In this document: in pieces, positions 9,380 through 49,093 of the stretch
Numbering within the stretch: the stretch's first letter is position 1
Layout of the letters: every line of letters starts with the position of its first letter
DNA from: Alicyclobacillus sp. SO9
Lineage (GTDB): Bacteria; Bacillota; Bacilli; Alicyclobacillales; Alicyclobacillaceae
DNA length: 64,000 nucleotides
Direction: 5' to 3'
NCBI RefSeq assembly: GCF_016406125.1
Contig: NZ_CP066339.1
Span: forward strand, 3,534,001-3,598,000
Program-made: the position numbers and the translations under genes
Notes under the pieces: generated by a model
What the model was told of the DNA's origin: nothing
What the model saw: the letters and a program-made list of their open reading frames with translations, nothing else
Databases searched by the model: none

Positions 9380-10063
9380 TTACTGAATCTCATCACGAAT
9401 GCTCCGGATATAACTGACGGTCTCATCGGGTCGTTCAAGCATCACGTAGTGAGCTGCGCTTGGAATCACCCAGGTTCTCACACGAGAATTTGCAGCAAGC
9501 ATCTCGTCCTTAGACAAAGGGGGCAACAGCTTGTCTTCAGAACCGTACAGTACATGTACCGGAAGGGTTAGCTTTGAGAGAGTCGCTTTACCATCGTCGT
9601 ACCGATTGCAACACTCATAGTCTGAGAGTGTAATTTCTGTAGAAACAAGGGTGATTTCTGTGCGCTCATCTTCAATGAGTTTTCTATCGGCATTTTTTCG
9701 ATAAGAAGCATTGAATAAGGAATTTGGAAACTCTCCGTCTCGCAGTCTCGAGAGAATCTTCTCATGCACAGGGAGACGGTAATGACTCGCTACCATGATG
9801 AGACCTTTTACATGGGGATTTCGTGCCGCAAGTTCAATTCCAATCAATCCACCCATGGAATGTCCCACGATGACAACATCCTGATGAATCTGTTCGCTCA
9901 GTGCTTCTGCATAGGCCCTAATGCTCTCCTTGGCTGCCCCTGTCTCAACCCCGTGGCCTGGCAGATCGATATAGAGGCCGTCGGACTCAGGCAGACGTTC
10001 CCGCACGAAACGCCATTTTGATTTTGTGCCACCCGCACCGTGAATAAACAGAAATGGCAGCAT
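9380..10063 (-). CDS. Alpha/beta hydrolase
   Basis: A 227-residue alpha/beta-hydrolase. The oxyanion region FLFIHGAGGTKSKW, the nucleophile elbow GHSMGG (Ser at about residue 69), the acid in LYGSEDKLLP and the catalytic His in PSAAHYVMLERP are all present and correctly spaced. It is the last gene of a catabolic operon with an extradiol dioxygenase and an FAH-type enzyme, so it may cleave a C-C bond in a ring-fission product, as MhpC/BphD-type hydrolases do, or an ester. That role is inferred from context only. Confidence 0.85.
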   Translation of the reverse strand: MLPFLFIHGAGGTKSKWRFVRERLPESDGLYIDLPGHGVETGAAKESIRAYAEALSEQIHQDVVIVGHSMGGLIGIELAARNPHVKGLIMVASHYRLPVHEKILSRLRDGEFPNSLFNASYRKNADRKLIEDERTEITLVSTEITLSDYECCNRYDDGKATLSKLTLPVHVLYGSEDKLLPPLSKDEMLAANSRVRTWVIPSAAHYVMLERPDETVSYIRSIRDEIQ

Positions 10064-10123
10064 GCAACCATCCTCCAGTCTTGTAGTCTGAGTTAGTTAT
10101 TGCTGTTTGTTCCGGATGAGTTT

Positions 10124-10888
10124 CTAAAATCTTGCAGCCCGCTTCTCTGAAAATGCCTGCACACCTTCCATGAAGTCTGCGGCATCTACCCAACTCCGCT
10201 GCTTTGCAGTTGGCTTTGGAACTGGGTTTAACACGTTTTCCTTTACCGCCCTTAACGAAGCGCGAGATTGCATCAATATCTTCCGACATAGTTTAAGGGT
10301 CTCCGAGCCCAAGTTCTCACTGTTCGTCACATAATTCAGTATTCCGACCTCTAGTGCCCTATCTGCATCATAACTGCGAGCCGTATAGACCAAGTCCATG
10401 GTTCTGCTGGTCCCCAAGGTGCGAATCATACGACTCAAAAACGGTTCCTCGAGGGTTATCCCAAGTTTCCCAACAGGCATACCAAATTTTGCTTTTTCTG
10501 TACCAATCCTGATATCACAGGCCATTGCCAGAATAAATCCTGCGCCAAAAGCAGGGCCATTAATAGACGCCATCGTCGGTATTGGAATGCTTTCAATACT
10601 TTTCATTGCCGTTTCCATGGTCTCAAAGGCTTCATTTGCCTCTTGGGGAGACAACTTCGCAAATTCTTTGATGTCGCTTCCTGCAGTAAAATCCTGCCCC
10701 GCACCTCTTATGACCAGCACCCGTGTCTTTTTCGGAAGTTTATTCGTCCATTCCGAGATGGTGTGCCACATGTCCTTTGTCAATGCGTTGCGCTGATGGG
10801 GACGGCTAATTGTAATAATACCGACTGGACCAGCCAGTTGAAAACGCAATGTACCCATGTCATTGAAGCGTTCAACCACAACTTTCAT
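10124..10888 (-). CDS. Enoyl-CoA hydratase/isomerase family protein
   Basis: A 254-residue crotonase-fold protein. GAGQDFTAGSDIKEF forms the first oxyanion-hole segment, INGPAFGAGFILAMACDIRIG the second, and a Glu in GITLEEPFLSRM sits where a catalytic acid is expected. ATG 10888 has a GGGAGGAG site. It is inside the catabolic operon, between an amidohydrolase and an alpha/beta hydrolase, and probably acts on a CoA ester or as a C-C hydrolase. Specific substrate unknown. Confidence 0.87.
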   Translation of the reverse strand: MKVVVERFNDMGTLRFQLAGPVGIITISRPHQRNALTKDMWHTISEWTNKLPKKTRVLVIRGAGQDFTAGSDIKEFAKLSPQEANEAFETMETAMKSIESIPIPTMASINGPAFGAGFILAMACDIRIGTEKAKFGMPVGKLGITLEEPFLSRMIRTLGTSRTMDLVYTARSYDADRALEVGILNYVTNSENLGSETLKLCRKILMQSRASLRAVKENVLNPVPKPTAKQRSWVDAADFMEGVQAFSEKRAARF

Positions 10889-11074
10889 TGTGTCTCCTCC
10901 CGTCTTGCTCAGTTGTCTCGCTCAGTTGGTGCACCAAGTCCCCTTCGTATCCACACACTTACCTTGTCAGTCATCATCAGCAAGTCACGGATTCCGCTGA
11001 TGCGAAATCCGTGAACGCTTTAAAGATGCGTTAGTCACCCAGTTTCAGTTTGCAGAACCTCGACAGCACAATGA

Positions 11075-12442
11075 TTACATTGGCCATGCGCCTTCAGGTA
11101 CTCCGTATTCAGAGAAAATGTAGTCTCGTGATGTAGAGGCAAGGCTTCTAATTCTGTCCATATCCACGTTCAACAGGCGCCCGTCACGCTTCACTGCTTT
11201 TCCTGCAACAAAGACCGAGTCCACATTTCCAACGTGTGCGGAGAAGGTTACGGAACCAACGGGATCGTTCATGGGAGTCATGTTAATATCCGTAGCCCGA
11301 ATCATGATGATGTCGGCTTGTTTACCCGGTGTCAAAGAACCTACTTTCCCTTCCAGCCCCAATGCTCTGGCACCGTCAACCGTTGCAAAATGCAGTATGT
11401 CCTTGGCTGTCATAGGCAGACTCTCCGGCATCTCTCCGCGTGCCAACACTGTTTCATTAATGCGAGAGCGCTCGGCCTGTGCCATAAACTTCATCTGTGC
11501 AAACATCTCGCCGCCGGTGGAAGTTACTACGTCGATTCCAATTGTGGGACGTCCCCCGTGCTTTGTGAGTTTGCCTGTGAGAGGGTAGCCGTGACCCATC
11601 ATCAATTCGACTTCAGGCGTTACTGAGACCGACGCCCCAGTGTCTGCAATCATCTTATATTCTTCATCACTGATAGAGTTGACATGCACGAGATTGAGAT
11701 CGGGAGCCAAGAGACCCGCATTGTACATTTTCTCAATGGAGCGGTCGGCTGAACCCCAGGAGCCAAAGCCCACGTGCATCGAGCAGATTGCATCCAATTC
11801 CCTGGCCAACTTTATATCGTGAAGGGTTGATTCCCATGATGAAAATTCCGGTCCGCGGATTGCCAGACCCATGGTCAAAAGCTGATCTTTGGATGAGAAA
11901 TACTTTTCTTTTAACCGGGTCGCATCGTCAGAGTGATTCAGTGCACTTTCCCTGTGCCAGTAGTCACCGGCCCCGCGCAACGGTGTTCCGTGAGCAAACA
12001 CTGCACGAATTCCCGCCTCTTGCAGCGCGCGCACCATTTCGTCTCCGTGTTCAGGCGAGTTAATCATAGACCAGTCCAAAAGCGATGTGATGCCGGCATT
12101 CAAGGCTTCCAATGCGCCGAGCAAATTCCCAATGTACACGTCCTCCGGTCGCAGTACTCCGCCCAGCCCGCCAAAATACAGGTGGTTCAGATATGTCGGG
12201 AGCGTCCAATCAGGTCCTGCGTTTCGAATGACCGCTTCCCAAACGTGCCGGTGTGTGTCCACAAACCCAGGCAAAACAATCATTTCACTAGCGTCCACTA
12301 CTTCACAGTCAGATGCGTCAATGTTTGGTCCAACAGAGATGATGTTGCCGTTTTCAATCAAGACGTCTGCCGTTTCAAAATTCCCCAGAGATTCATCCAT
12401 TGTCAGGACGCAGCCATTCTTAATGAGCATTCGGTTTGCCAT
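11075..12442 (-). CDS. Amidohydrolase of the ATZ/TRZ (chlorohydrolase/deaminase) type
   Basis: A 455-residue metal-dependent hydrolase. It has the split small beta-domain at both ends (MLIKNGCVLTMD and LTPGKQADIIMIRATD), the metal motif VLPGFVDTHRHVWE at about residue 60, a conserved CSMHVGFG His and an NLVHVNSISDEE His, and an Asp in PTIGIDVVTSTGG. This is the layout of the cytosine/guanine deaminase and triazine hydrolase branch. It lies in a minus-strand operon with an extradiol dioxygenase and FAH-type hydrolase. It may remove an amino or similar group from an N-containing aromatic; that is inference. Confidence 0.85.
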   Translation of the reverse strand: MANRMLIKNGCVLTMDESLGNFETADVLIENGNIISVGPNIDASDCEVVDASEMIVLPGFVDTHRHVWEAVIRNAGPDWTLPTYLNHLYFGGLGGVLRPEDVYIGNLLGALEALNAGITSLLDWSMINSPEHGDEMVRALQEAGIRAVFAHGTPLRGAGDYWHRESALNHSDDATRLKEKYFSSKDQLLTMGLAIRGPEFSSWESTLHDIKLARELDAICSMHVGFGSWGSADRSIEKMYNAGLLAPDLNLVHVNSISDEEYKMIADTGASVSVTPEVELMMGHGYPLTGKLTKHGGRPTIGIDVVTSTGGEMFAQMKFMAQAERSRINETVLARGEMPESLPMTAKDILHFATVDGARALGLEGKVGSLTPGKQADIIMIRATDINMTPMNDPVGSVTFSAHVGNVDSVFVAGKAVKRDGRLLNVDMDRIRSLASTSRDYIFSEYGVPEGAWPM

Positions 12443-12492
12443 TAGATATCCCCCTTAGATTGGTTATATAATCAGTGAATCACTGTTTCACC

Positions 12493-13368
12493 CTAGACCA
12501 ACGATTGCTCAAATGCAGTTCCCCAGCGCGTCATACACTCTTCTGTTTCCCACACGCGCGGTTTCTGGGGGTAGTTTTCATGCCACGGCCGCGGTTCGAA
12601 CATGTCTAATTCTGGAACGTAGATGTCCGCATCTGTGAACAGTTCAATCATGTTCCCATCGGGATCACGATGGTATGTCGCAATGTTATGCCCGGCTCCG
12701 TGACGGGACGGTCCCCACAGAATTCGGATACCGTTGCGCCCCAATGTATCCATTGACTGTATCAAGTGACTGTAATCTCTAAGTTCCAAAGCCATGTGAT
12801 GCATTTCTTTTCTATCAGATGTCGCAAAGTTCAAGACGTGGTGGTCTCGGTTACACGTCATAAATCCAAAAAAGTCTTCAATCCAATCCGTATTTGTGAA
12901 TCCAAACTGCTTATAGAACTCGACGGACTTCTTTGCGTCCTGTACCCGAAGTGACAGGTGCCCCACTTTGTTTGGTGCGACGCCGGTCTTTTTAAAGCCC
13001 TCAGCTGCCAGTTCCATCTCTCCGAAAAGCTGAACGGTGTATCCATCTATATCCTTGAACTCAACCAACTCTGAAACTCCAGGCATCGGGTCTGTCTTCA
13101 CATTCCCATTCAGTCCCATTCGCTCCAGTTCTGACGCAGCCTCTGCTACTGACATTTCCGGAACCAGTTGCAGACCAAATCCGACAACACCAGACTCTGA
13201 GGACTGTTCCAAAATAATATTGTGATGGTCAATGGAAGTGCTTACATAAGCCGTCTGACTGTCTTGCTGAGTGACCGTTAAGCCCAGCACATCCGTATAG
13301 TACTCCAGCATTCTCTCCATGTTTTGTGTCTGAAAGTGAACATAACCTAAACGAAACACCTTAATCAT
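12493..13368 (-). CDS. Extradiol ring-cleavage dioxygenase (VOC family, catechol 2,3-dioxygenase-like)
   Basis: Two tandem vicinal-oxygen-chelate modules are visible (about residues 5-120 and 135-255) in a 291-residue protein, the size of type I extradiol dioxygenases. The second module carries the likely iron ligands: His in NKVGHLSLRV, His in KEMHHMALEL and Glu in DPDGNMIELF. The HNIATYHRDPDGNMIELFTD ending matches the family signature. It probably opens a catecholic ring next to a hydroxyl. ATG 13368 has an AGAAGGAGG site. The neighbouring FAH-type and alpha/beta hydrolase genes fit processing of the ring-fission product. Confidence 0.85.
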   Translation of the reverse strand: MIKVFRLGYVHFQTQNMERMLEYYTDVLGLTVTQQDSQTAYVSTSIDHHNIILEQSSESGVVGFGLQLVPEMSVAEAASELERMGLNGNVKTDPMPGVSELVEFKDIDGYTVQLFGEMELAAEGFKKTGVAPNKVGHLSLRVQDAKKSVEFYKQFGFTNTDWIEDFFGFMTCNRDHHVLNFATSDRKEMHHMALELRDYSHLIQSMDTLGRNGIRILWGPSRHGAGHNIATYHRDPDGNMIELFTDADIYVPELDMFEPRPWHENYPQKPRVWETEECMTRWGTAFEQSLV

Positions 13369-13590
13369 GGTTGTTCCTCCTTCTAAAATGCTTCATAGAT
13401 TTATACTTCATCTCAGTTATATTTCAAAATCCCCGGAAGATTTCGTAACTTTTCTCTTATACAAAACATCCCCTTCCCCGCCGACTTATTTAGACCACTG
13501 GCCCTCCGGGCAGACCTGCTTCAGTTCCTTTATTGAAGAGAGCCGGCGGCCAGCGGATTTCATTCCCTCTGAACTTACTGTTCTCGAAGA

Positions 13591-14556
13591 CTATTTCGCG
13601 GCGCCAGAAACCACTTTGTTCTGTTGAACGCCCAAGTTGATTCGACCGTCACTGCTTTTGATTTCCGTTCGAATCTCATCACCGTCCTTCAAATATGCCT
13701 GCCTTTCTTTTTGAGTGCTTAAGAGACGTTGCATTCTGTCTTCACTCGGCAATGTGGCATTGGAAACGTAGACCATGTCTTCCCTGTCCATCTTAAGTGC
13801 GACGCCGCCTGGGGTACCAGTTAAAACGAGATCGCCGGGAAAGAGGTCTACAATTTCCGAGAGTTCTGAAAGAGACTCTTCAGGCTTAAACAGCAGTTGA
13901 TTTGTGTTTGCGGACTGCCTCACTTCACCGTTTACAGAAAGATTCAAATCCAAATCATGAATAAGGCTCGCTTCATCCTTGCCAAACAGGTACAAGAACG
14001 GTCCTGTCGGGCAGAATGTACGATAACTCTTGCCCTTAAACCACTGACCTTCAACCAACTGAACATCTCTCGCCGAAACATCGTTCGCAATCACGATGCC
14101 AGCTACATAATCCAAAAAGTTGGTTTGCGTAATCTCTGTTGGAGACGTTAAGGGAGATTTGATAACCAAGCCTACTTCGACCTCATAATCCAGGAGTTCT
14201 ACATGTCGCGGTCTGACGATGTTGTCGGTTGGACCTGACAAGGATGTGTAGGACTTAGTAAAAATGAGATTATAGGAGGGCTTGCTCGGCTCCATACCTG
14301 CTTCCTGTCGATGGTTGGAATAGTTTGCACCCTGACAAATAATTTGTGCAGGTGCCGTGACTGGACTGAGCAATTTCACTTGGCTGAGCGAAAATTTCTC
14401 AGATGTCGGAGGTTCACTCATTTCAACAACCCCGCTGGACAGTAAGTCACCTAATGTATCGTAACTTCCTTTCAGTGCGTGAACAGAGTTGTCCTCGACA
14501 AATCCAAAACGAACTTTACTTCCGTCATGAAATCTCACTAGAGTCTTTCCCAACAT
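13591..14556 (-). CDS. Fumarylacetoacetate hydrolase-family protein
   Basis: A FAH-fold enzyme of about 321 residues. The substrate-entry CQGANYSNHRQEAG, the metal-binding LLDYEVEVGLVI with paired acidic residues, the IANDVSARDVQ motif and the LVLTGTPGGVA ending are diagnostic. Family members act as isomerases, decarboxylases or hydrolases on beta-diketo or ring-fission acids. ATG 14556 was chosen because AAGGGAG lies five bases upstream; it overlaps the end of the GntR gene by 32 bases, which suggests translational coupling. The most likely step is after the extradiol dioxygenase. Confidence 0.85.
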   Translation of the reverse strand: MLGKTLVRFHDGSKVRFGFVEDNSVHALKGSYDTLGDLLSSGVVEMSEPPTSEKFSLSQVKLLSPVTAPAQIICQGANYSNHRQEAGMEPSKPSYNLIFTKSYTSLSGPTDNIVRPRHVELLDYEVEVGLVIKSPLTSPTEITQTNFLDYVAGIVIANDVSARDVQLVEGQWFKGKSYRTFCPTGPFLYLFGKDEASLIHDLDLNLSVNGEVRQSANTNQLLFKPEESLSELSEIVDLFPGDLVLTGTPGGVALKMDREDMVYVSNATLPSEDRMQRLLSTQKERQAYLKDGDEIRTEIKSSDGRINLGVQQNKVVSGAAK

Positions 14557-15277
14557 CAGCACTCCCTTCATTGCTTTCCTCAATTAACGCCGTCACACTT
14601 TGCAGCAATTCCGTCATGGTACGTTTAGCTCCAGCTTCGTCACCTTTACAAACTGCGTCCATAACAGCCTTATGCTGCGTCAGTGCATTGGCCCTCGGTT
14701 GTTCTTCTCTTGCTTTCAGAACCGGAATTGTTTTACGTCTGCTATACAAAAGCGCATCCCGTAAAAGTCTTATCAAGTTCAACATGAGCTCGTTGTGTGC
14801 AGCAGCAATGATACTGTCGTGAAAATCGTAGTCTGCAGTTGCCCAGTCGGATTCGTTGTCAGTCGACTGTTGAAGCTTAGCAAATGCTAATCTAATTTCG
14901 TTTCTATCCTCGTCGGTGGCATTTTTCGCCGCCATAGCTACTGCCGCAGGTTCAATCACCAACCTGATTTCTACGACCTGTAGTAAAAACCTCTGATTGA
15001 GCGATGTATCTATCGACCAGCGCAGTACATCAGTATTCCACCACTGCCAGTCAGACCTGTCACGAACCACTGTTCCAACCTTAGGTTGTGAGGCAATGAG
15101 GCCAAGCGTCGACAGTCCTTTTAGAGCCTCACGCGTTACAGTCCTGCTGACCCCTTTCATTTCACTCAGGGCTTCCACACTTGGGAGCACTTGTCCGGAT
15201 TCAAGTTCACCACTTATGATTTCACGCCCAAGTTCCTGAACTAATTGGCCACTTAGTTTCAAATTTCTCATTGACAA
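14525..15277 (-). CDS. GntR-family regulator, FadR/FCD subgroup
   Basis: A 250-residue regulator. The winged helix (about residues 8-75: LVQELGREIISGELESGQVLPSVEALSEMKGVSRTVTREALKGLSTLGLI) is followed by an all-helical FCD effector domain with IEPAAVAMAAKNATDED and the metal/ligand His residues in DYDFHDSIIAAAHNELM and HKAVMDAV. It is the first gene of the catabolic operon and its promoter carries a near-perfect palindrome, so it likely represses itself and the genes downstream until a pathway acid binds. Confidence 0.9.
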   Translation of the reverse strand: MSMRNLKLSGQLVQELGREIISGELESGQVLPSVEALSEMKGVSRTVTREALKGLSTLGLIASQPKVGTVVRDRSDWQWWNTDVLRWSIDTSLNQRFLLQVVEIRLVIEPAAVAMAAKNATDEDRNEIRLAFAKLQQSTDNESDWATADYDFHDSIIAAAHNELMLNLIRLLRDALLYSRRKTIPVLKAREEQPRANALTQHKAVMDAVCKGDEAGAKRTMTELLQSVTALIEESNEGSADVGKDSSEIS

Positions 15278-15314
15278 TCTCCATTCTCATGCATGGAATG
15301 TTCACCATTTATTC

Positions 15315-15344
15315 AATAATAATATGTTATTATTTTTAAATCAA
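15315..15344 (-). promoter_or_regulatory. Promoter with overlapping palindromic operator for the gntR-led catabolic operon
   Basis: Minus strand TTGATT (15344-15339), 17 bases, TATTAT (15321-15316). A 20-base near-perfect palindrome of AATAATAA and TTATTATT arms around a short centre (15315-15334) covers the -10 box. Such overlap would block polymerase, so autorepression by the GntR protein is the simplest reading. Confidence 0.6.
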
Positions 15345-15462
15345 CACCTCAATTTAGAATCGTCTGAAACTATAACGAATAGACTAGCATTCTTTTTATC
15401 GTATCCTGGCCACACGTTGGTTTGGGCCAGTAGATAACTAAATGGCATTTTCAACAAAACAA

Positions 15463-15492
15463 AACAGCACGCGGAGTTAACCGTGCGCTGTT
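15463..15492 (-). terminator. Terminator downstream of the G1 peptidase gene
   Basis: Minus-strand hairpin with arms AACAGCGCACGG and CCGCGTGCTGTT (one mismatch), followed by TTGTTTTG. Confidence 0.7.
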
Positions 15493-15521
15493 CTCGAGAG
15501 ATTACGTAGTGGTACCCTTAA

Positions 15522-16751
15522 CTAACGTCCCCAGACATAAGCTGAATTGGCATTCGTGCTTCGTTGCGTATATAAAGAAACAGCGGCCGAATCTCCATCT
15601 CCTCCACGGCGATTGGCGAACTGCCCGTAAGAACGGTGCGTTCTCGGGTAGAAACTGCCGCTTCCCCTGGTGCGCCAAGAATGGCCGTACCCTGGCGCAA
15701 AGCTCCGTCCCGTTGCTGCCGTGTCGTACCCGCCAATGTTGCCCTGTGTCGCGACAGTCTGCGTGGAAAAGGACTGCCCGTTGTGCCCTAGTTTCGATGG
15801 TGCTATCAAAACAGTCCCATATGAAGAAACCAGTGCCATCGGTTTCATAGAGTTTCCTTTCAGAGCAGGAGCTTGGTGGTTCACAGTAGCTCCAGTGAAC
15901 TGAACCTTTGCAGTACTTGCCAGTGGATAGAGATTGCCATTGGCGTTCGATGGGTCTTCACTGATCCACTCCGCAGATGTACCGATGCCTTGGGCATAAC
16001 TGGCCGTAAGCGTTGTCCTTATAGTTCGTGTCACTGTTTGACCCGATGGCGTTGCGGCAGAAAATTCGAGATTCCATTGTAACCCTGCTGCTTTCGCTAT
16101 GGTTACATGAACAGTAGACCCAACTGGAATCGTCATGACACTCTGTGCAGTATTCGGAAGCTTCTCCCAAAATACATCTACTTGTTCACTTCCATTTGCG
16201 CCTTGTTCCACCGTTCCCATTTGAAGCAAGTTGTTAGATGACACACCGCCAAGTCCAACCCATTGTGCCGCGGCACCGGATTGTCCGCTTGCCACCCTGG
16301 GTACCGTCCAACTTCCAGATACCGAAGTGTAGCCGTTACCAGAGACCGGTTTTGCCACGTATCCTGCCCAATTGCTCGATGGCTGCGTGTTGGCCGGCAT
16401 CCCTGCTGTTGCTGTGCCGCCTACAGATTGAGTCGAAACCGTAACGGCAGGTTGAGTCGGAGGACTCGACGGCTGCCACGAAGGTGAAGCAGAGCTCGGT
16501 ACAGTTGGAGTCCCCACTTCTGACTCGCTCTCTGCAGGAGCATTTGATGTCCATCGAGAAACAGACTGCGGTGCTGCGGTAGACTGCTGCTCAGTGATAG
16601 TGAATCCGGCAGTCGTATCTCCCCCGATATAACGCTGCGTTGAAGGGAAGCTTTGATAACTTCGAAAGTCCTTGTGATATAAGGCATATCCGGCAACTGA
16701 CAGCCCCAGCACGGCAGAAAGCGCAACCGCACCTGTGAGCTTTGTCTTCAT
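15522..16751 (-). CDS. Secreted G1-family (glutamic/eqolisin) peptidase
   Basis: The protein starts with an N-terminal hydrophobic segment (MKTKLTGAVALSAVLGLSVAG), then a Ser/Thr/Pro-rich linker to about residue 120, then a G1 domain: NWAGYVAKP, SGSWTVPRV, QWVGLGG, LLQMGT and SAEWISED. The Gln in LLQMGT (about residue 177) and the Glu in SAEWISED (about 261) are the best candidates for the catalytic Gln/Glu pair of this family, which works at acid pH. ATG 16751 has a GAGGAGGG site; the upstream in-frame ATG 16778 lacks one. The tail after residue 330 is rich in Gly, Ser and Arg. Likely exported to digest protein outside the cell. Confidence 0.82.
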   Translation of the reverse strand: MKTKLTGAVALSAVLGLSVAGYALYHKDFRSYQSFPSTQRYIGGDTTAGFTITEQQSTAAPQSVSRWTSNAPAESESEVGTPTVPSSASPSWQPSSPPTQPAVTVSTQSVGGTATAGMPANTQPSSNWAGYVAKPVSGNGYTSVSGSWTVPRVASGQSGAAAQWVGLGGVSSNNLLQMGTVEQGANGSEQVDVFWEKLPNTAQSVMTIPVGSTVHVTIAKAAGLQWNLEFSAATPSGQTVTRTIRTTLTASYAQGIGTSAEWISEDPSNANGNLYPLASTAKVQFTGATVNHQAPALKGNSMKPMALVSSYGTVLIAPSKLGHNGQSFSTQTVATQGNIGGYDTAATGRSFAPGYGHSWRTRGSGSFYPRTHRSYGQFANRRGGDGDSAAVSLYTQRSTNANSAYVWGR

Positions 16752-16871
16752 GGAGCATCCCTCCTCATTGGTCCCCACATACCAAACTGATTCAATAGGG
16801 TTAGTATAGACAGCAAGTATTGAGGACTTTTGAGGAAGATGTGTAATTATTGTGATGATCCAGAACCTACG

Positions 16872-41460: not shown

Positions 41461-41490
41461 TTGGATTTCGACACGTTCCAAACACAGTTA

Positions 41491-41523
41491 AAAGCGCGAC
41501 CCTCATGTAGCGGGTCGCGCTTT
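41491..41523. terminator. Bidirectional terminator
   Basis: A perfect hairpin, AAAGCGCGACCC and GGGTCGCGCTTT with a nine-base loop, between two convergent genes. The A/T ends give a T run on both strands. Confidence 0.85.
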
Positions 41524-41526
41524 CAA

Positions 41527-41916
41527 CTATAACACGGCTGTCAGTTCAATTTGTACACGTAAACCCTCCCGCAGATCTGTAACGGTCGTGTGCCTCGCAG
41601 GTCTGTCGTTCTCATCCGGAAACATCTTCAACCACTCAACATTCACTACTTTTTTGTACTCTCTATCATTTACCAAAACCGTTAGATGAGCGATATCATC
41701 AGTGCTTCCTCCAGCAAGATGCATGATCTCTCGAATATAGTGAAAGAGATTGGCCACCTCTTCCTGCACGGTTTCCGGCATCTCACCTGTTTCTGGATTG
41801 GAACCAATGAGAGCTGATGTATAAACCATGTTGCCTGTTTTGACTGCAGTTGGAATCGGATTTTGATGTTCGGAACCTTTCACGTGCAACACTTCCCGCT
41901 TAGCCAAGTTGCGCAC
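41527..41916 (-). CDS. RidA/YjgF-family protein
   Basis: A 129-residue RidA-fold protein (YTSALIGSNPETGEMPETVQEEVANLF near the start, HTTVTDLREGLRVQIELTAV at the end). The Arg of the classic RPARH stretch is present. Family members hydrolyse reactive enamines/imines or act in ring-degradation pathways. GTG 41916 is used, with a weak ribosome site. It is the last gene of a catabolic operon and may act on a pathway intermediate. Confidence 0.85.
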   Translation of the reverse strand: MRNLAKREVLHVKGSEHQNPIPTAVKTGNMVYTSALIGSNPETGEMPETVQEEVANLFHYIREIMHLAGGSTDDIAHLTVLVNDREYKKVVNVEWLKMFPDENDRPARHTTVTDLREGLRVQIELTAVL

Positions 41917-41964
41917 ATCCCTTGTGATAAATTGTCAAGACACAACTGAAAGTCTGAATGAAAT

Positions 41965-42975
41965 TCACATACCCTTTTGTTGATAGTACTCCTTGGCACC
42001 TGCGGCTAGTGGTACACCTGCCAATCCTTTCGTAGCATTGGCTAGTTTGCTGTTTTTGGCTGCTGACACTGTCTGCCCAATAGGTCCGATGTTTTGCCAC
42101 AGAGCCTTGGTCAGTTCATAGGCTTCTTGTTTCGGCATACTGGCAGGAACTACCAGCATAATGTTCTGTGCTACTGTATGGACCGGGGAAGTCTGTTTGT
42201 CGTAGGCCCCAGCTTTGATCGTATAGGGATAGAGCCAGGGATAATTCTTCTGCAGACTGGAAATCTGACCCGAGCCAAGGCTCAACAGTTGACCGTTGGC
42301 AGTCGTGAGCATTTGCGTCACAGCCGATGTTGGAATACCAGCGGTAATAAACGCACCGTCCGCCTGGTGGTTCTTCATTAAATTCACAGCGGATGTGAAC
42401 CCAACAAATTGCGGTTTTACATCTGTCAGTTTCAAGCCGTAGGCCTTGAGAATGGATTGTGCAAGCACCTTGGTTGAGCTGCCAGGTGCGCCGGGGACGA
42501 AACTCTTTCCTTTTAAGTCACTGACAGACTTGATATTCAGCCCCTTTCGAACAATCATTTGTGCGACCGACGGATATAGGCCTGCAAGAACCCGTACATC
42601 CTTGTAAGGCTTGCCTTTGAAAGCACCAGTTCCAGTATAGGCCTCGTGAAGGACGCCAATCGTCGTAAAGGCAACATTAATCTTTCCTTGTTCCAGTAAA
42701 TTCAAGTTTTCAACACTGCCATTCGTTACCTGAGAAGCCGCGTGAACATGGGACAGCTTTTGACTCCAGATTTTCGCCAGTTCTGCACCAAAAGGATAGA
42801 ATACACCGGTGGTTGTAGCCGTACCGATATTCACTTTGTATGTGGCCGTCCCACTCCCTGTACCATTGCTGTGACCGCCGCCATTGGTAGTTGTGTTGTT
42901 GCTTTGACCACACCCCGCCAGAGAAACTCCCAAAGCAATAGTTGCCATTGGCACTGCAAAATACTTGATTTTCAT
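41965..42975 (-). CDS. TAXI-family TRAP transporter solute-binding lipoprotein
   Basis: A 336-residue lipoprotein: signal with lipobox LAGC (Cys at about 22), then VNIGTATTTGVFYPFGAELAKIWSQKL and the TAXI core HAASQVTNGSVENLNLLEQGKINVAFTT. It should capture a substrate outside and hand it to the fused TRAP permease upstream. ATG 42975 is eight bases after GGGAGGG. The gene order (permease then binding protein) and operon suggest a di- or tricarboxylate related to the enzymes encoded with it. Confidence 0.92.
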   Translation of the reverse strand: MKIKYFAVPMATIALGVSLAGCGQSNNTTTNGGGHSNGTGSGTATYKVNIGTATTTGVFYPFGAELAKIWSQKLSHVHAASQVTNGSVENLNLLEQGKINVAFTTIGVLHEAYTGTGAFKGKPYKDVRVLAGLYPSVAQMIVRKGLNIKSVSDLKGKSFVPGAPGSSTKVLAQSILKAYGLKLTDVKPQFVGFTSAVNLMKNHQADGAFITAGIPTSAVTQMLTTANGQLLSLGSGQISSLQKNYPWLYPYTIKAGAYDKQTSPVHTVAQNIMLVVPASMPKQEAYELTKALWQNIGPIGQTVSAAKNSKLANATKGLAGVPLAAGAKEYYQQKGM

Positions 42976-43052
42976 CACATAGACCCTCCCACAGAATTTA
43001 GTTTGGAATTTTCTGAAAAATCATCCTGATGCTTACGTCATCTATCACATCC

Positions 43053-44996
43053 TTAAATGGCTGTGATGGAACGAAGAGTCAGCTTCTGCCACAGTATGAC
43101 CGCAGCAAACAGAACTAGCCCCACCACACCCGTTTGATAGCCAGGAAAGATTAACAAAACCCCTGCAGCGAGAAGCATTAGCCGTTGCGTAATATTCAAG
43201 CGCTTGAACAGGTAGTTGGAGAACGATGAGGCAAAAGCCGTCACGGCAATGACTCCGAGAATGGCGGATATAAAGCCCGCTGCAATGCTCCCGCCGTGAA
43301 ACAGGAGAGCCGGATTATAGAGAAAGAAGTACGGAATAACCAAACCGATGAATCCAAGTCGCATGGCTGCGAAAGAAACCTTGGAAAAAGGTTCTTGAGC
43401 AATGCCCGAAGCCACCATTACTGCTAAGGCTACAGGGGGAATAATGTCTGACAACGCAGCGTAGAAAAAGGCAAACATATGTGCGACCAAAATTGGAACT
43501 CCCATTTTCACTAACAGGGGAGCCGCCACTGTTGCGGTAATAATATAGGAAGCGGTAATCGGTACGCCCATCCCGAGGAGGATGCTTATCAGCATGGTTA
43601 GCAAAGCCACAAGGAACAGGTGGTTGCCAGAAAGCATCAGAATATTGTTTCCCAAGGTCAACCCCAGACTCGTCAGTGCAATGGTTCCTACAACCACACC
43701 AACAATGGCACACGCGGCGCTAATCGTAAGAACGCCTTTTACGCCGTCTTCCACCGCTTCCACAATCTCACGAAATCCCAAGCGGGTTTCCTTGCGGAAC
43801 CAACTGGCAACAATAATCGCCAGCATCGCCCATGGCGCCGCGTAGAGTGGCGTCATACCATCCACTAGCAACACAACTATCAGTAACACCGGAAGGAGCA
43901 GGTGGCCTCGTCGTTTGAGAACATGAATGACGTTCGGAATCTCTTCTTTGGAGAGTCCGGAAAGCCCCAGTTTCTTGGCCTCAAAGTGCACTGACATAAA
44001 GGTCATGCTGTAGTAAAGGATAGCCGGGACGATGGCGGCCAGCATGATTTCTCGGTACGGTACTCCAATGAACTCTGCCATGACAAAACTGGCTGCACCC
44101 ATAATTGGAGGTGCAATTGTGCCCCCCGTGCCGGCAACAGCTTCCACGGCTGCTGCCACGTGTCCCGGCAAACCGTTTCTTTTCATCAGCGGAATGGTCA
44201 CCGTCCCTACAGACGCCGCATTGGCGACGCCGCTGCCATTAATCATACCCATCAAGCCGCTGCCGATGACTGCTACTTTTGCCGGGCCCCCAGATGAACG
44301 TCCCGTCAGGGCGACAGCCAGTTCATTGATAAAATCAATGAATCCACTCTTCCGAAGAAAAGCACCAAAGAGGATAAAGAGAAAGATGTAAGTACTCGCT
44401 ACTCCGAGAATGACACCAAATATGCCCTGCGTGCCCCACCACATGACGTCGATGACCCGCGACAATCCAAAAGACGACGTCTGCAGGATGCCGGGAACAT
44501 ACTGTCCCAAGAAGTTGTAGAGCAGAAAGACCAAGGCGAGAATGGTTAACACTGTTCCTGCCGCGCGTCGAGCGGCTTCAAAAGTAATCACGACACCCAG
44601 TGTGCCAAACACGTAATCCAAGTGGTTGTGCATACCGCTTGCTGCATAGATATCATAGCGATAAAGGAAATACACAACGGTCACGATAGATGCGGCGATG
44701 AGCAGCATATCCCACCATGTCGGAAGTCTCCTGTCGCTCCTTTCTTTTTTGGAAGCGGGGAACAGAAGGAAAATCATCACCACGAGAAAACCGAAAAACC
44801 AAACCCGGGTCTTGATGGTCTCCATGACACCGACACTTGAGACATAAACCTGAAACAGTGCCCAAATCACAGACAGCACAGTTATGATGCGAACCATGGG
44901 ACCTGCGTATTTACGCAGATGGAACACAGATTGCGCCTCGTCCGCAGCGTCATTCTCATGATGCTCGGTGGTGGCAGGCGGGGTTTCCTTTTGCAA
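43053..44996 (-). CDS. TRAP transporter permease, fused 4TM/12TM
   Basis: A 647-residue membrane protein that joins the small and large TRAP subunits, as in TAXI systems. The GSGLMGMINGSGVANAASVGTVTIPLMKRNG and EAVAGTGGTIAPPIMGAASFVMAEFIGV motifs, and the later MLISILLGMGVPITASYIITA, are those of DctM-like units that use an ion gradient. TTG 44996 has an AGAAGGAGGAG site. With the downstream binding lipoprotein it forms a complete importer. Confidence 0.93.
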   Translation of the reverse strand: MQKETPPATTEHHENDAADEAQSVFHLRKYAGPMVRIITVLSVIWALFQVYVSSVGVMETIKTRVWFFGFLVVMIFLLFPASKKERSDRRLPTWWDMLLIAASIVTVVYFLYRYDIYAASGMHNHLDYVFGTLGVVITFEAARRAAGTVLTILALVFLLYNFLGQYVPGILQTSSFGLSRVIDVMWWGTQGIFGVILGVASTYIFLFILFGAFLRKSGFIDFINELAVALTGRSSGGPAKVAVIGSGLMGMINGSGVANAASVGTVTIPLMKRNGLPGHVAAAVEAVAGTGGTIAPPIMGAASFVMAEFIGVPYREIMLAAIVPAILYYSMTFMSVHFEAKKLGLSGLSKEEIPNVIHVLKRRGHLLLPVLLIVVLLVDGMTPLYAAPWAMLAIIVASWFRKETRLGFREIVEAVEDGVKGVLTISAACAIVGVVVGTIALTSLGLTLGNNILMLSGNHLFLVALLTMLISILLGMGVPITASYIITATVAAPLLVKMGVPILVAHMFAFFYAALSDIIPPVALAVMVASGIAQEPFSKVSFAAMRLGFIGLVIPYFFLYNPALLFHGGSIAAGFISAILGVIAVTAFASSFSNYLFKRLNITQRLMLLAAGVLLIFPGYQTGVVGLVLFAAVILWQKLTLRSITAI

Positions 44997-45085
44997 AGGG
45001 ATCTCCTCCTTCTTTTTCAGCCTTGTTGATGGCCAAGACTAGAACGCTTTCATGAACCTTTATCTGAGACAGGGAGGTTTCAGCC

Positions 45086-45973
45086 TCACATCCCTTTTTC
45101 ATCCTGTCTCATTGCCGCCAGCACCTCTCGGAAATCTGCGGGGGTCTGACAGTGAAAAAACTCCTGTAAATCAGAATCAGCAATGTGCTTTAATTTAGCC
45201 TGGGTACCCTCTGACATAACAGTGTCAAGTCCTAGACTCTGCAGTGTTTTCTGAACTTCACCCATTTCTGCAACGCGCCGCTCTGCATGGTTAACAGTAC
45301 GAGTCATCAGCAAGTTCACCGTTTCCTCCAAGTCGCTGGCAGTCATCGTCTCGCTCAGTGAACTCATCACGATATCCACCGCATCGTACTCCCGAGCCAA
45401 AGCGAATGTTTCGAAAAACAGCATCGTTATGCCTTTCATAAAAATGGATCTCGCCATCTTTATGGCGGATGCCCTTCCCGGCATCGTTCCGACACTTGTC
45501 ATGTTCATTCCGTACGGCGCACCAAACGCCTCAAACTGAGAAACCCCGCTGCCGCTGAGAAGCATCGGAACCTTATGACCGTGCTTTGGTACCGCATCCA
45601 TGACTGCCGCATCTACTGACGAAATCTCTTTCGTTTTGAGAACTGCTGCAATCTCTTCCTTCGCCATGGGTGAGGTTGCGTTCATATCCACATACACGTG
45701 ATTTCGCGTTAGGTACGCCGAGGTCTCTTCGGCGATTGACCTTGCATATTTGGCACTGGTAGCGCAGACAATCAAATTCGCTTCGCGACACAGTGTGTCT
45801 AGGCCCGGCAACAGTTTGACAGACAATTCTTGGGCCCGTTGTCGGATAAGCAGGCCATGCTCTGGATGATTCGCATTGACATCAAAGGCGCATACCTCGT
45901 CCAGCCCTTCAGCTATCAATCCCTTGGAAATCAGGTAGGCCGCCTCACCAAAACCAATAAATCCTATTTTCAT
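45086..45973 (-). CDS. NAD(P)-dependent dehydrogenase, DUF1932 type
   Basis: A 295-residue two-domain dehydrogenase. The N-terminal Rossmann fold (MKIGFIGFGEAAYLISKGL) resembles 6-phosphogluconate/3-hydroxyisobutyrate dehydrogenases; the C-terminal half (PGRASAIKMARSIFMKGITMLFFETFALAREYDA) is DUF1932. It is encoded with GalB/GalC-like enzymes, so it may oxidise or reduce a ring-derived hydroxy or keto acid. ATG 45973 has a GAGGTGA site. Confidence 0.85.
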   Translation of the reverse strand: MKIGFIGFGEAAYLISKGLIAEGLDEVCAFDVNANHPEHGLLIRQRAQELSVKLLPGLDTLCREANLIVCATSAKYARSIAEETSAYLTRNHVYVDMNATSPMAKEEIAAVLKTKEISSVDAAVMDAVPKHGHKVPMLLSGSGVSQFEAFGAPYGMNMTSVGTMPGRASAIKMARSIFMKGITMLFFETFALAREYDAVDIVMSSLSETMTASDLEETVNLLMTRTVNHAERRVAEMGEVQKTLQSLGLDTVMSEGTQAKLKHIADSDLQEFFHCQTPADFREVLAAMRQDEKGM

Positions 45974-46012
45974 GGAGAGTCACCTCAATGGCGTCATATT
46001 GTGTCCTGTGCA

Positions 46013-46696
46013 TCAGTCATCCACATAGCGGACGTTTTCCTTTTCCAGGACACCACGCAGGTTGTAGAAATCGATGCTCAATTGCCCGTTTTCTATTTTC
46101 TCCTTGGTCTTGTCTTCTTTCTCAAGGCGGTTCAAAGTCAATTTCTCAGTTTCTTCAATATCTTCTTTCCGAATTACCACAACGCCATCTTCGTCTGCCA
46201 TGACCAGGTCTCCGGGACCGACGGTGACGTCGCCACAGATAGTTTCGGCATTGACCCATCCGCCGCGGACCTTAGTGGTCCCCTCGGAACAAATAGCTCT
46301 GGACCACACCGGGAATCCTAGCTCGCGAATGCGGGCCGCATCCCGTATCCCCGCGTCAATGACCAGTCCCTTGACCCCCCGTTTCATGAGGGCACGAACA
46401 ATCAGTTCACCAACCATACCGCAGTTACTGGGCGAGCCGATGGTGGTCACCACCAGAATGTCCCCCGGCTGACAGGCTTCAACAGCCGCGTGAATCATGA
46501 GATTATCTCCCGCATAGCAGGTGGCCGTTACCGCAGGACCGCAAACCAGAGTATTGTCTATGAGCGGACGCAAGTCATGGGCCATGAGCCCCTGTTTGCG
46601 CTGAGCCTCATAGACTGTAGAAACATCATAGATCTCATAGCGTTTGACGACGGCCTTACTGGGCCTGTCAATGTTGAGTCGAACGAATTTCTCCAT
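46013..46696 (-). CDS. 4-carboxy-4-hydroxy-2-oxoadipate aldolase (RraA-like)
   Basis: A 227-residue RraA-fold protein. VCGPAVTATCYAGDNLMIHAAVEACQPGDILVV, GMVGELIVRALMKRGVKGLVIDAGIRDAARIRELGFPVWSRAICSEGT and the DLVMADEDGVVVI ending are those of the ProA/LigK/GalC aldolases that split CHA to pyruvate and oxaloacetate. The DxGxRD motif carries the key Arg and Asp. The start shares one base with the stop of the preceding GalB-like gene (TAATG), which implies coupled translation. Neighbours support the aldolase reading over an RNase regulator. Confidence 0.87.
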   Translation of the reverse strand: MEKFVRLNIDRPSKAVVKRYEIYDVSTVYEAQRKQGLMAHDLRPLIDNTLVCGPAVTATCYAGDNLMIHAAVEACQPGDILVVTTIGSPSNCGMVGELIVRALMKRGVKGLVIDAGIRDAARIRELGFPVWSRAICSEGTTKVRGGWVNAETICGDVTVGPGDLVMADEDGVVVIRKEDIEETEKLTLNRLEKEDKTKEKIENGQLSIDFYNLRGVLEKENVRYVDD

Positions 46697-47424
46697 TAGA
46701 CAAACTCCCCTCCTACGTATGGATAGAAGCGCGTAAAGGTTTCAGCATACTTGTAGGTCTGGTTTCCAGAGATTCGACGAGCGTGATTCCCCCGCATTTT
46801 GGCTCTGTCCTTGTAGTAGTCAATCAAATGAGGCTGCGCCTCAAAACACTCCATGGCCCGTTTTTTCTGTTCGTAAGCGTCTGTGATGTCGATAATCATG
46901 TCATGCTTGTAATCACTCAGTTCCGTCTGGTGCGGTTCGTAGCCAAAAATCTGAGGTTGCCGTAAATGCGGAAGGCCTTCCATCCTGACGCCCGCGGACG
47001 TTGCCAGTACGCTGGCTTCAAAGACGTACTGAGAGACCGTGTTGTGGTCGGGATTTAGCACATCGTTTTTTGGATGAGTCACAATGAACTGCGGCTTGAC
47101 CTCTCGCATCTTCCGCACAAGACGCTCCATTCTATTGTTGTCGATAAACATGTGATAGTCTTGATAGTCCCAAATTTCGAGATTCGTAACACCCAGGTGT
47201 TTGGCTGCGCCTTCAATTTCGCCGCGGCGAATCTGCTTCACGTTCTGCTCGGTCTGGCCTTCCAGTTTCCACAGTGCTCCAGACTCACCCCTTGCACCAT
47301 AACTGAGTACGACCAAGTGCACATTGGCACCGCCATTGACGTAGGTTGCAATTGTTCCACCGCACCTCCACACAAAATCTGCTGCGTGGGCGCTCACAAC
47401 AAGTAAATTGGTGTGTTTGTTCAT
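46696..47424 (-). CDS. galB: 4-oxalomesaconate hydratase (GalB-like, PIG-L family)
   Basis: A 242-residue zinc-binding PIG-L-fold protein. VVSAHAADFVWRCGGTIA replaces the deacetylase HPDD motif in the same way as Pseudomonas GalB, which hydrates 4-oxalomesaconate to 4-carboxy-4-hydroxy-2-oxoadipate; THPKNDVLNPDH is the second metal motif. The next gene encodes the aldolase for that product, so the pair forms two successive steps of gallate or protocatechuate meta-cleavage. ATG 47424 has a TGGAGG site. Confidence 0.82.
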   Translation of the reverse strand: MNKHTNLLVVSAHAADFVWRCGGTIATYVNGGANVHLVVLSYGARGESGALWKLEGQTEQNVKQIRRGEIEGAAKHLGVTNLEIWDYQDYHMFIDNNRMERLVRKMREVKPQFIVTHPKNDVLNPDHNTVSQYVFEASVLATSAGVRMEGLPHLRQPQIFGYEPHQTELSDYKHDMIIDITDAYEQKKRAMECFEAQPHLIDYYKDRAKMRGNHARRISGNQTYKYAETFTRFYPYVGGEFV

Positions 47425-47443
47425 TCAAATTCCTCCAGTTGGA

Positions 47444-48328
47444 TCAGTCTTCGACAAGTTGTGTTGGATTGTGAACGGACATAGTCCGAATTTCCTCTTC
47501 AGAAAAGCCGTTGTCCAGCAGTCTTTGGGCGAAGTCCATCAAGCCTTCGTCAGGGAAGGGTGCTGTCGGTTGTCCTAGATCGGTGGACAAAATGCAGTGC
47601 TGCGGTCCCACGTAGCGAATTTGTTCATAAACGGTTTCCCATGCCACCTTGTTGGTGTTTGGCGTGGTGAAACAGTGTTCCATATACGCTCCCATGTCTG
47701 CCAACTGTTTCTGCTCTTCTTTGGTATAGAAAGTAGACGGGAAATTCGGGTGGGTAATAACTGTTTTTACGTTCTGTTCACGAGCGGCTTTCACTAAGGT
47801 GAACACTTCCTCTTTGCCCAAGTGGCCCGATGCCAGAATCATATGGTGTTCCTTGACCGCATCGATGATGTCGTGCAATTCGGCTTTCAAGTTCCCGTCC
47901 TCTAGTATCGAAATACTGGCGGTCACTTTACCTTTGGCAATAAGTTCCTCCTGCAGTTTGGCCCAGAATGGTTTTTTCGTGTAGTTTCCACCACGGAAGA
48001 AGGCTTGTTCGTTGGCGGAATCGAACGTAGGCATCCACACCACTTTCGCACCATCTCGTCCAGCCATGTCGACAGCCGTGGCATTAAGCCCTCCGACCGC
48101 ATTGTTCAAGGTGATGGCTCCAATCGGATTGACCTTTGGATACGATTTCTGTGCCAACCGAGCCCTTTCAGCGGTACAAAAGTAGTGTGACTTGATGGCA
48201 AATCCCTTCATACCTGCCATTGACATCCGCTCGGCCATGTCTAAGTCGTCCAGTTTACGATTCATGACATCCGGCCCCGTATGTACGTGCAGGTCATAAG
48301 CCCCTTCCAGTAATTTGCGAATCTCCAT
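47444..48328 (-). CDS. DUF6282-type metal-dependent hydrolase
   Basis: A 294-residue amidohydrolase-fold protein: DLHVHTGPD (first metal His pair), LASGHLGKEE and VITHPNFPS (further His), and ILSTDLGQ (Asp). It is similar in kind to LigI-like lactonases (2-pyrone-4,6-dicarboxylate) or LigJ-like hydratases, also amidohydrolases, and a lactonase that feeds 4-oxalomesaconate would complete this operon. That role is inference. ATG 48328 has a GAAGGAG site. Confidence 0.75.
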   Translation of the reverse strand: MEIRKLLEGAYDLHVHTGPDVMNRKLDDLDMAERMSMAGMKGFAIKSHYFCTAERARLAQKSYPKVNPIGAITLNNAVGGLNATAVDMAGRDGAKVVWMPTFDSANEQAFFRGGNYTKKPFWAKLQEELIAKGKVTASISILEDGNLKAELHDIIDAVKEHHMILASGHLGKEEVFTLVKAAREQNVKTVITHPNFPSTFYTKEEQKQLADMGAYMEHCFTTPNTNKVAWETVYEQIRYVGPQHCILSTDLGQPTAPFPDEGLMDFAQRLLDNGFSEEEIRTMSVHNPTQLVED

Positions 48329-48345
48329 AATTGCTGTCCACTCCT

Positions 48346-48987
48346 TCAGATAAGGTAATGATAAAATTCCTTGATGGTATTGCGGACATTGCCAATGTGC
48401 ACCTGGATTGCCTGTTCCGCCGCATCCTTGTCTCCGCGTTCCAGGGTTTCATAGATGGCCGTGTGCTCTGCCATCGAACTGTCGTTACGCCCTGGAATGA
48501 GAATAGTGCGGAAGTGGTACCGAAGCAGTTGCGTCTTAATGCTCACCACAAACTCCACTGCCTGTTTGTTCGTGGATGCCTCATAAATAATGTTGTGAAA
48601 TTCCTTGTTTAAATCTGAATAGTGGTCCAGGTCATTTTCATCCACACACCGTTGCATCTTATCTAACGTTGCTTTAAGCGCTTTCAACTCTGCTGCAGTA
48701 ATATGTTCTGCAGCGGAAAGTACAATGAGGCGCTCGAGATAAATGCGAATCTCAAAGTAATTCAGAACCTCTTCCAGAGTGAAGGACCGAACCACCGCAC
48801 CCTTGTTTTTCTCAATCTCTACCAGACGTTCCCGCTCCAGGTGCAACAGCGCAAGGCGAATTGTGTTCCTGCTTACACCGAGGTCCTGAGAAAGCGTCGT
48901 CTCCACCAACTTCTGAGCCGGTTTGTACACATTGCTCAGGATTCTCTCCCTAATCATTGCGTATGTCGACTGTACCTGATCGCTCAT
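48346..48987 (-). CDS. GntR-family regulator, FCD subgroup
   Basis: A 213-residue regulator. The winged helix (TYAMIRERILSNVYKPAQKLVETTLSQDLGVSRNTIRLALLHLERERLV) and FCD domain (NYFEIRIYLERLIVLSAAEH, DLNKEFHNIIYEAS, HTAIYETLERGD) are complete. ATG 48987 has a GGGGAGGAG site; upstream ATGs to 49047 lie inside the promoter region. It is first in the operon and should sense a pathway acid. Two palindromes flank the promoter. Confidence 0.9.
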   Translation of the reverse strand: MSDQVQSTYAMIRERILSNVYKPAQKLVETTLSQDLGVSRNTIRLALLHLERERLVEIEKNKGAVVRSFTLEEVLNYFEIRIYLERLIVLSAAEHITAAELKALKATLDKMQRCVDENDLDHYSDLNKEFHNIIYEASTNKQAVEFVVSIKTQLLRYHFRTILIPGRNDSSMAEHTAIYETLERGDKDAAEQAIQVHIGNVRNTIKEFYHYLI

Positions 48988-49011
48988 GTGCTCCTCCCCA
49001 TTGCGGTCAAT

Positions 49012-49093
49012 ATTGTTGAACAATTTCGTCCGCATTATTGAATGCAATAGTGATTGTAATATTACTATTCAAAGTTGTCAAACTGTTCAACAA
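49012..49093 (-). promoter_or_regulatory. Operon promoter with two flanking operator palindromes
   Basis: Minus-strand TTGACA (49081-49076), 17 bases, TACAAT (49058-49053). One palindrome, TTGTTGAACAG, sits right upstream of the -35 box (49083-49093); a second, ATTGTTCAACAAT, lies about 30 bases downstream of the -10 box (49012-49024). Both share TTGTT-S-AACA, so one protein, probably the GntR product, may bind both and repress by looping or block. Confidence 0.7.

Follow-up and report, generated by a model that had tools for sequence, protein, structure and literature searches.

A predicted aromatic lower-pathway operon in Alicyclobacillus sp. SO9 with its own TAXI importer and no linked ring-cleaving dioxygenase

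Proposed function of the operon

A 64,000-nucleotide stretch of the Alicyclobacillus sp. SO9 genome (contig NZ_CP066339.1, positions 3,534,001 to 3,598,000), here called the window, carries on its minus strand eight genes (41527-49047) in the order GntR regulator, DUF6282 protein, GalB-like hydratase, aldolase, DUF1932 dehydrogenase, TAXI permease, TAXI lipoprotein and RidA. This unit probably encodes the later steps of a pathway for extradiol cleavage of aromatic rings, of the protocatechuate-4,5/gallate kind. In the proposed scheme, the TAXI importer would bring in the acid that starts the pathway, the DUF1932 protein would carry out an oxidation upstream of DUF6282, and DUF6282 would hydrolyse an acid that is either cyclic or a ring-fission product, the simplest case being the conversion of 2-pyrone-4,6-dicarboxylate to 4-oxalomesaconate. 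GalB would then hydrate 4-oxalomesaconate to 4-carboxy-4-hydroxy-2-oxoadipate (CHA), which the aldolase would split into pyruvate and oxaloacetate; RidA may clear a reactive by-product, and GntR may control the unit. In most related loci, a nearby VOC-type dioxygenase would supply the substrate. What the analysis establishes is the gene content with its families, a predicted fold, conserved residues, the co-occurrence in relatives and the missing dioxygenase ortholog; for every step, we infer both the substrate and the direction.

The open reading frames and the Pfam and NCBIfam matches bear out the genes, strand and families named in the initial annotation of this DNA (GalB-like, CHA aldolase, DUF6282, DUF1932, RidA, TAXI-TRAP). 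That annotation did not mention the GntR regulator heading the unit. It had also stated that the operon lacks a ring-cleaving dioxygenase, and none was found among the eight unit proteins in a Pfam scan at E 0.001. LigC-type dehydrogenases and GalD/LigU-type tautomerases are family types expected of protocatechuate 4,5-cleavage and gallate operons; neither was detected among the eight proteins at this threshold. The unit is a real, well-formed operon and a variant of a known lower pathway. Most related gene sets have a ring-cleaving enzyme close by; this one differs from them in having none and in being coupled to its own importer. Since a linked dioxygenase gene is absent here, the pathway would be fed by an imported acid or by a dioxygenase encoded elsewhere in the genome. 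Import of a ready ring-cleavage product or close precursor has a little under an even chance and is slightly favoured over supply by an unlinked dioxygenase, itself a realistic option.

Hydratase, aldolase and dehydrogenase

The PIG-L protein (46696..47424, minus strand) has as its closest match in the PDB the 4-oxalomesaconate hydratase 5cgz (E 8e-46, residues 7-237), the next match following at E 8.5e-07. Its motif SAHAADF corresponds to SAHSADF of 5cgz, the hydratase-type HxADF, whereas PIG-L deacetylases carry HPDDE at this place. It is therefore predicted to be a GalB-like enzyme of the 4-oxalomesaconate hydratase type, nearer to the hydratase than to any deacetylase in the PDB. The adjoining HMG/CHA aldolase of the RraA fold (46013..46696, minus strand) passes the NF006731 model (249 bits, cut-off 179) and is related to 3noj (E 3e-54). 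In a mapping made by hand on the 3noj alignment, with the window letters checked and the reference residues taken from portions of PMC5065237, it retains 10 of the 11 mapped active-site residues of the Pseudomonas putida enzyme: R118, D119, E194, N65 and H69 correspond to R123, D124, E199, N71 and H75, and G96, G139, T140, K142 and R190 to G101, G144, T145, K147 and R195. The exception is R40 of P. putida, replaced by K34. The two PDB matches and these residues agree with the earlier assignment of hydratase and aldolase to successive oxalomesaconate steps. The DUF1932 protein (45086..45973, minus strand), a putative NAD(P) dehydrogenase resembling 6-phosphogluconate dehydrogenases, matches PF09130 and the PDB entries 3qsg (E 2e-39) and 4ezb (E 1e-38).

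The DUF6282 protein

The protein encoded at 47444..48328 (minus strand) is predicted to hydrolyse a lactone or a ring-fission product. It matches PF19799 (225.6 bits) and no other Pfam family at E 0.001, the LigI/Amidohydro_2 family included, and there is no amidohydrolase among its four PDB sequence matches to E 1. Its structure model, built from 45 alignment rows, has a pLDDT of 95.2. VIA-align gives Z scores of 18.8-20.6 for 50 listed entries, including dipeptidases, dihydroorotase, isoaspartyl dipeptidase, phosphotriesterase-like lactonases and others; absences from this comparison were not counted as evidence. Foldseek places the putative 2-pyrone-4,6-dicarboxylate hydrolase 2ffi at rank 17. 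Amidohydrolase-superfamily enzymes are TIM barrels in which an HxH motif follows strand 1, a His each of strands 5 and 6, and an Asp strand 8. Residues H14, H16, H169, H193 and D250 are invariant in the 45 rows and lie at the expected strands of the model, and the protein is confidently modelled as a barrel of this superfamily. Such fold matches support a hydrolase, not a particular substrate. Thus the earlier proposal that DUF6282 acts on a ring-cleavage product gains a hydrolase-fold enzyme, and the specific substrate draws no support from the fold.

Twenty-two positions set 18 GalB-linked DUF6282 rows apart from 23 other rows (the row of locus L002 being in neither group). Four of them, P197, H218, T221 and K227, also differ from the close rows of loci L058, L059 and L074, which lack GalB. 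In these three loci, DUF6282 is 57-61 % identical to that of the window, and cupin- and HpcH/HpaI-type genes lie nearby, named by a scan in L059 and by clustering in L058 and L074; DctP/DctM genes occur in two of the three. This suggests a sister function within the DUF6282 subfamily. A search of 299 class genomes finds the family in 45 at E 0.001 (42 above the cut-off); it also matches 47 plasmid records, and two of the six records examined carry GalB. It is named as being of function unknown, and none of the papers in the library searched contains the name DUF6282. Its tie to two enzymes of known chemistry narrows the candidate substrate to a few acids. If the pyrone is indeed the substrate, the operon would hold a new type of pyrone lactonase together with an importer, which would be useful for the polymer chemistry of 2-pyrone-4,6-dicarboxylate.

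The core in related genomes

Twenty-nine GalB loci, the window included, were collected from a GalB search of 41 family genomes, a DUF6282 search, one named contig and one plasmid. A gene was counted if it exceeded a set bit score in the open reading frames of either strand within, at best, about 9.5 kb on each side; L001, L077, L078, L137 and L144 are short stretches. Three dioxygenase types were sought, and other types would escape in GalB and control loci alike. A ring-cleaving dioxygenase lies in the flank of 24 of the 29 GalB loci, compared with 0 of 31 control loci that have DUF6282 without GalB; these were drawn by the DUF6282 model, and DUF6282 falls under the bit cut in five of them. 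This locus type therefore appears to be an aromatic lower pathway that was not built for an imported product. Left out of the count were L036 (an A. dauci plasmid with GalB in two frames), L038-L041 (plasmids with DUF6282 and no GalB), the archaeal contig L002 (which has DUF6282 and a remote CHA aldolase but lacks a GalB match) and genome G311, where a contig end truncates GalB and a C23O match lies 5 kb further on.

Conserved co-occurrence, the check proposed in the initial annotation, was found: the GalB loci hold the CHA aldolase in all 29 cases, GntR in 26, DUF6282 and DUF1932 in 21 each, and RidA in seven. Genes resembling catechol 2,3-dioxygenase (C23O) occur in 20 loci, which are not independent, as 10 of them share the genus label g2; LigB c14 occurs in five, LigB c38 in eight, ring-hydroxylating dioxygenase in seven and TAXI in one. 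Seven genus labels of the class are represented among the C23O loci, along with Thermus oshimai and bacterium HR27; in L053 the C23O gene is divergent from the core. The loci without a dioxygenase are the window, L134, L135, L142 and L144. In the GalB tree, the window groups with L053, L055 and L056, which have C23O, and with L134 and L135, which have none (support 100/100), and the state without a dioxygenase requires at least four changes. The simplest reading is an ancestral dioxygenase link that was lost several times.

Importers near the core vary: TAXI in the window, an MFS protein in L134 and L135, DctPQM in L055 and L056, and another MFS type in eight loci. The sister operons L134 and L135 combine DUF6282, GalB and the aldolase with an MFS importer, and their flanks hold neither the tested dioxygenase types nor DUF1932. 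Their MFS proteins are 83 % alike and stand nearest to the aromatic acid/H+ symport family, under its cut-off (232.3 vs 418.6 bits). In L134, an ATP-type phosphoenolpyruvate carboxykinase gene (13966-15435) follows RidA on the same strand; it was seen in this locus only and is in keeping with oxaloacetate as a product. The A. dauci plasmid copy L036 (11163-13432) is a broken operon start, its regulator being annotated as two pieces and its GalB lying in two frames, alongside the intact chromosomal copy L135.

Several observations weigh against the assignment to a protocatechuate-4,5/gallate pathway. DUF6282 was not seen in eight of the 29 GalB loci, some of them cut by contig ends, and its fold is no nearer to a pyrone hydrolase than to many other entries. 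The aldolase stays under the stricter LigK/PcmE equivalog TIGR02798 (204.6 vs 304.5 bits). Three C23O-like neighbours score as catechol 2,3-dioxygenase (332.2, 322 and 330.6 bits, cut-off 320.2), the shortened protein of L143 reaching 287.6 bits, and catechol as their substrate would not yield 4-oxalomesaconate; catechol meta-cleavage has been assigned to some Alicyclobacillus reference genomes, according to passages of PMC9296663. An HMS-type lower pathway (DmpG and PraH-like genes) is also present in the flank of nine loci, where C23O could serve that pathway instead. Furthermore, L136 and L138-L141 place GalB and the aldolase beside LigB and an alpha/beta hydrolase in place of DUF6282, with DUF1932 not seen in four of the five, a gene set that could constitute a C-C hydrolase pathway.

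The aldolase family also cleaves 4-hydroxy-4-methyl-2-oxoglutarate, and it is present in organisms that have neither protocatechuate nor gallate gene clusters, as reported in PMC5065237. This would fit an operon recruited from an aromatic pathway to break down a branched acid that has no aromatic ring, such as one that leads straight to 4-hydroxy-4-methyl-2-oxoglutarate or CHA; the likeness of DUF1932 to 6-phosphogluconate-dehydrogenase-type enzymes and the missing dioxygenase point the same way. Because GalB of this type stands with a dioxygenase in so many of its loci, such a function seems unlikely, and the aromatic lower pathway is preferred.

Supply of the pathway substrate

The source genome (two contigs, 5.29 Mb, rated 100 % complete) has no ortholog of the GalB-linked C23O type at E 1e-20 except one 32 % identical match that scores as HpaD (418.7 bits, cut-off 321.4); the query started at an internal Met (281 aa). 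No ortholog was found in genome G304 at the same threshold, and G300, the home of L135, has one at another place (74 % identical). Both G304 and G300 carry LigB and other VOC genes.

The initial annotation had concluded that TAXI imports ready 2-pyrone-4,6-dicarboxylate or 4-oxalomesaconate and that DUF6282 opens the pyrone. Consistent with this are the lack of a dioxygenase in the unit, the absence of the C23O type (HpaD aside) from this genome and from G304, the loss of the glutamate site in the TAXI protein and the reported TAXI-TRAP transport of o-phthalate, a similar diacid (both detailed below). In addition, L134 and L135 lack the two pre-pyrone candidates in their flanks and hold just the three later ones with an importer, as pyrone uptake would predict. 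The window has retained DUF1932, contrary to that prediction, and a dioxygenase lies near the core in most relatives, where it may have a feeding role; such a neighbour in related genomes is the very finding that the initial annotation had named as counting against its reading. Together with the C23O ortholog of G300, the LigB and VOC genes of both genomes and the single TAXI locus among 29, this makes the full proposal rather doubtful. Ready-product uptake is thus weakened as a rule for the locus type; for this genome it stays a realistic option, given the missing C23O ortholog and the example of L134 and L135.

A serious contender, though short of an even chance, is that TAXI imports an intact aromatic (di)acid, which a dioxygenase encoded elsewhere cleaves before the operon finishes the degradation. 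Possible suppliers in the source genome are three members of the LigB family, at least three VOC genes in which two domains match, and ring-hydroxylating dioxygenase genes about 113 kb from the operon. In L055 and L056, the core is accompanied by a ring-hydroxylating dioxygenase together with the DctPQM importer. One of the VOC genes lies in the window itself (12493-13368), 28 kb from the operon; it resembles extradiol dioxygenases and keeps the H, H, E ligand pattern in an alignment, and it scores below the cut-off of every curated model matched. It belongs to a separate minus-strand run (9380-15277) of GntR-like, FAH, VOC, amidohydrolase, enoyl-CoA-hydratase-like and alpha/beta-hydrolase-like genes; the GntR-like gene and the final two were named from sequence only.

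The LigB genes weigh against this reading. All three are distant from LigB c14, the best match being 31 % over 71 residues, and HpaD is the sole C23O match at E 1e-20. Locus L089 (1855-16483), about 100-115 kb from the operon, holds PobA above its equivalog cut-off (549.4 vs 538.7), a PraH-like amidohydrolase of the Amidohydro_2 family, FAH, DmpG-like and DmpF-like genes, an aldehyde dehydrogenase near the HMS-dehydrogenase cut-off and LigB c38; IclR, ring-hydroxylating dioxygenase and MFS genes adjoin it. The set appears to be a protocatechuate 2,3-cleavage pathway that stands by itself, and parts of PMC12577307 place Alicyclobacillus PcaK homologs with that pathway. LigB c38, about 109 kb away and with relatives near the core in eight loci, was considered as the operon's feeder and rejected, its neighbours being a 2,3-cleavage-like set that needs no GalB. 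The second LigB scores closest to DOPA dioxygenase, though below its cut-off (207.6 vs 233 bits), and stands beside an amino-acid permease; the third lies among M20 peptidase, DAP-epimerase and CtaG genes, with no aromatic genes among the scanned neighbours. It is because of the further LigB and VOC genes that an unlinked dioxygenase keeps its weight as a supplier.

A more far-reaching view starts from the five steps of the Lig pathway. With C23O and DUF1932 added to the core, relatives offer one fitting candidate for each step, and bacterium HR27 shows all of this set except DUF1932, on a short contig. C23O-like, DUF1932, DUF6282, GalB and CHA aldolase might thus make up a whole protocatechuate 4,5-cleavage route in Bacilli and Thermus, the first three being unrelated replacements of LigAB, LigC and LigI. 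The window's lineage would have shed the first enzyme, leaving TAXI-fed scavenging of a pyrone-type diacid. This view is speculative and considered improbable as a whole.

The TAXI importer and RidA

The TAXI solute-binding lipoprotein (41965..42978, minus strand) matches TIGR02122 (265 bits, cut-off 84) and the fused permease (QM; 43053..44996, minus strand) TIGR02123 (654.3 bits, cut-off 321). The best PDB relatives of the lipoprotein include the glutamate-binding TAXI proteins 1us4 and 8s4j, which would fit an importer that serves glutamate and stands in the unit incidentally. The glutamate-ligand residues of VcGluP are Y45, S75, Q93, E125, Y200 and M201, according to passages of PMC11574862. 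Read by hand on the 8s4j alignment, with the first four checked, only S75 of these six is kept, the others being F60, T106, S137, I and T. The gene also lies between the promoter and terminator of the unit. A glutamate importer is thus highly improbable, which supports the initial annotation, as a glutamate-specific protein would have spoken against it.

Import of o-phthalate by TAXI-TRAP has been reported in denitrifiers (PMC13040137; suggested in PMC6362003), and o-phthalate is a diacid similar to 2-pyrone-4,6-dicarboxylate. Aromatic diacids are therefore a reported ligand class of TAXI, given this import and the TAXI pair in the PTH10 phthalate cluster. The class has few known substrates, and the lipoprotein described here is a case that can be tested with ligands. 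The initial annotation had regarded the gene context as informative in this respect; with TAXI beside the core in one of 29 loci, it is weakly so.

The TAXI match occurs at E 1e-60 in nine of 398 class genomes, the source genome included. GalB, DUF6282 and DUF1932 were not found beside TAXI in eight regions of seven of the eight other genomes (G087 was left out, and one region is a 5-kb contig). The nearest relatives, in L162 (permease 66 %, lipoprotein 57 %), adjoin thiamine and chemotaxis genes; in L163, a distantly related member of the RraA family (30 %) stands next to TPP-enzyme genes, and L165 has a GntR-like gene (27 %). Among plasmid records, 358 match the lipoprotein and 94 match GalB, contexts being examined for T. 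oshimai and A. dauci. The phthalate TAXI of Aromatoleum EbN1 was sought in stretches 1-50000 and 180000-223670 of its plasmid 2, where no TAXI gene is listed.

RidA (41527..41916, minus strand) matches PF01042 (56.8 bits) and stays under the NCBIfam cut-offs. In L134, L142 and L143, RidA shows 80, 81 and 85 % identity, compared with 67, 42 and 43 % for GalB, and thus appears strongly kept. A role as a dedicated pathway enzyme is doubtful, since only seven of the 29 loci have a RidA above the cut.

Comparison with known pathways

The P. putida gallate pathway consists of GalA, GalD, GalB and GalC, and the Sphingobium SYK-6 protocatechuate 4,5-pathway of LigAB, LigC, LigI, LigJ and LigK. Their make-up is in part given in passages of PMC5065237. 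The window unit shares with the former a GalB-type hydratase followed by an HMG/CHA aldolase; it differs in lacking a gallate dioxygenase and a GalD-type tautomerase and in adding DUF6282, DUF1932, RidA and TAXI. With the latter it shares the predicted end steps, a dehydrogenase and, in DUF6282, the LigI-type superfamily fold, whereas the LigAB, LigC and LigI families are absent from the unit and a GalB type replaces LigJ. The Thermus oshimai JL-2 plasmid pTHEOS01 (L037) carries GntR, DUF6282, GalB, CHA aldolase and DUF1932 in identical order. It differs in a catechol-2,3-dioxygenase-like gene directly upstream, possibly a VOC-type protocatechuate 4,5-dioxygenase, and has PobA and a ring-hydroxylating dioxygenase near (all within 8339-16840), with no TAXI or RidA in the stretch. 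Pseudomonas PTH10 (opaL/opaN) and denitrifier o-phthalate clusters likewise contain a TAXI lipoprotein and fused permease in an aromatic-acid cluster (parts of PMC6362003 and PMC13040137). PTH10 is reported to have its own oxygenases and a 2-hydroxymuconate lower pathway instead of GalB and CHA aldolase.

Gene layout and transcription signals

Families were assigned with Pfam and NCBIfam for all eight proteins, with PDB sequence matches for five. The stretch 41490-49081 (minus strand) is predicted to be a single transcription unit, with neighbouring genes overlapping by 1 base or separated by 17 to 89 bases. A putative promoter, TTGACA-17-TACAAT (49053..49081, minus strand), is a consensus match only, and the promoter scan overall was near chance (10 found vs 8.4 expected). 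A predicted intrinsic terminator (41490..41523, minus strand) consists of a 12-bp hairpin and a short T run, in a 60-base stretch folding at -26.4 kcal/mol; it was read from the sequence, the automated scan having missed the hairpin with its loop limit of 8. The GntR/FCD regulator (48346..49047, minus strand; PF00392, PF07729) more likely starts at the ATG at 48987, behind GGGGAGGAG, than at the TTG at 49047.

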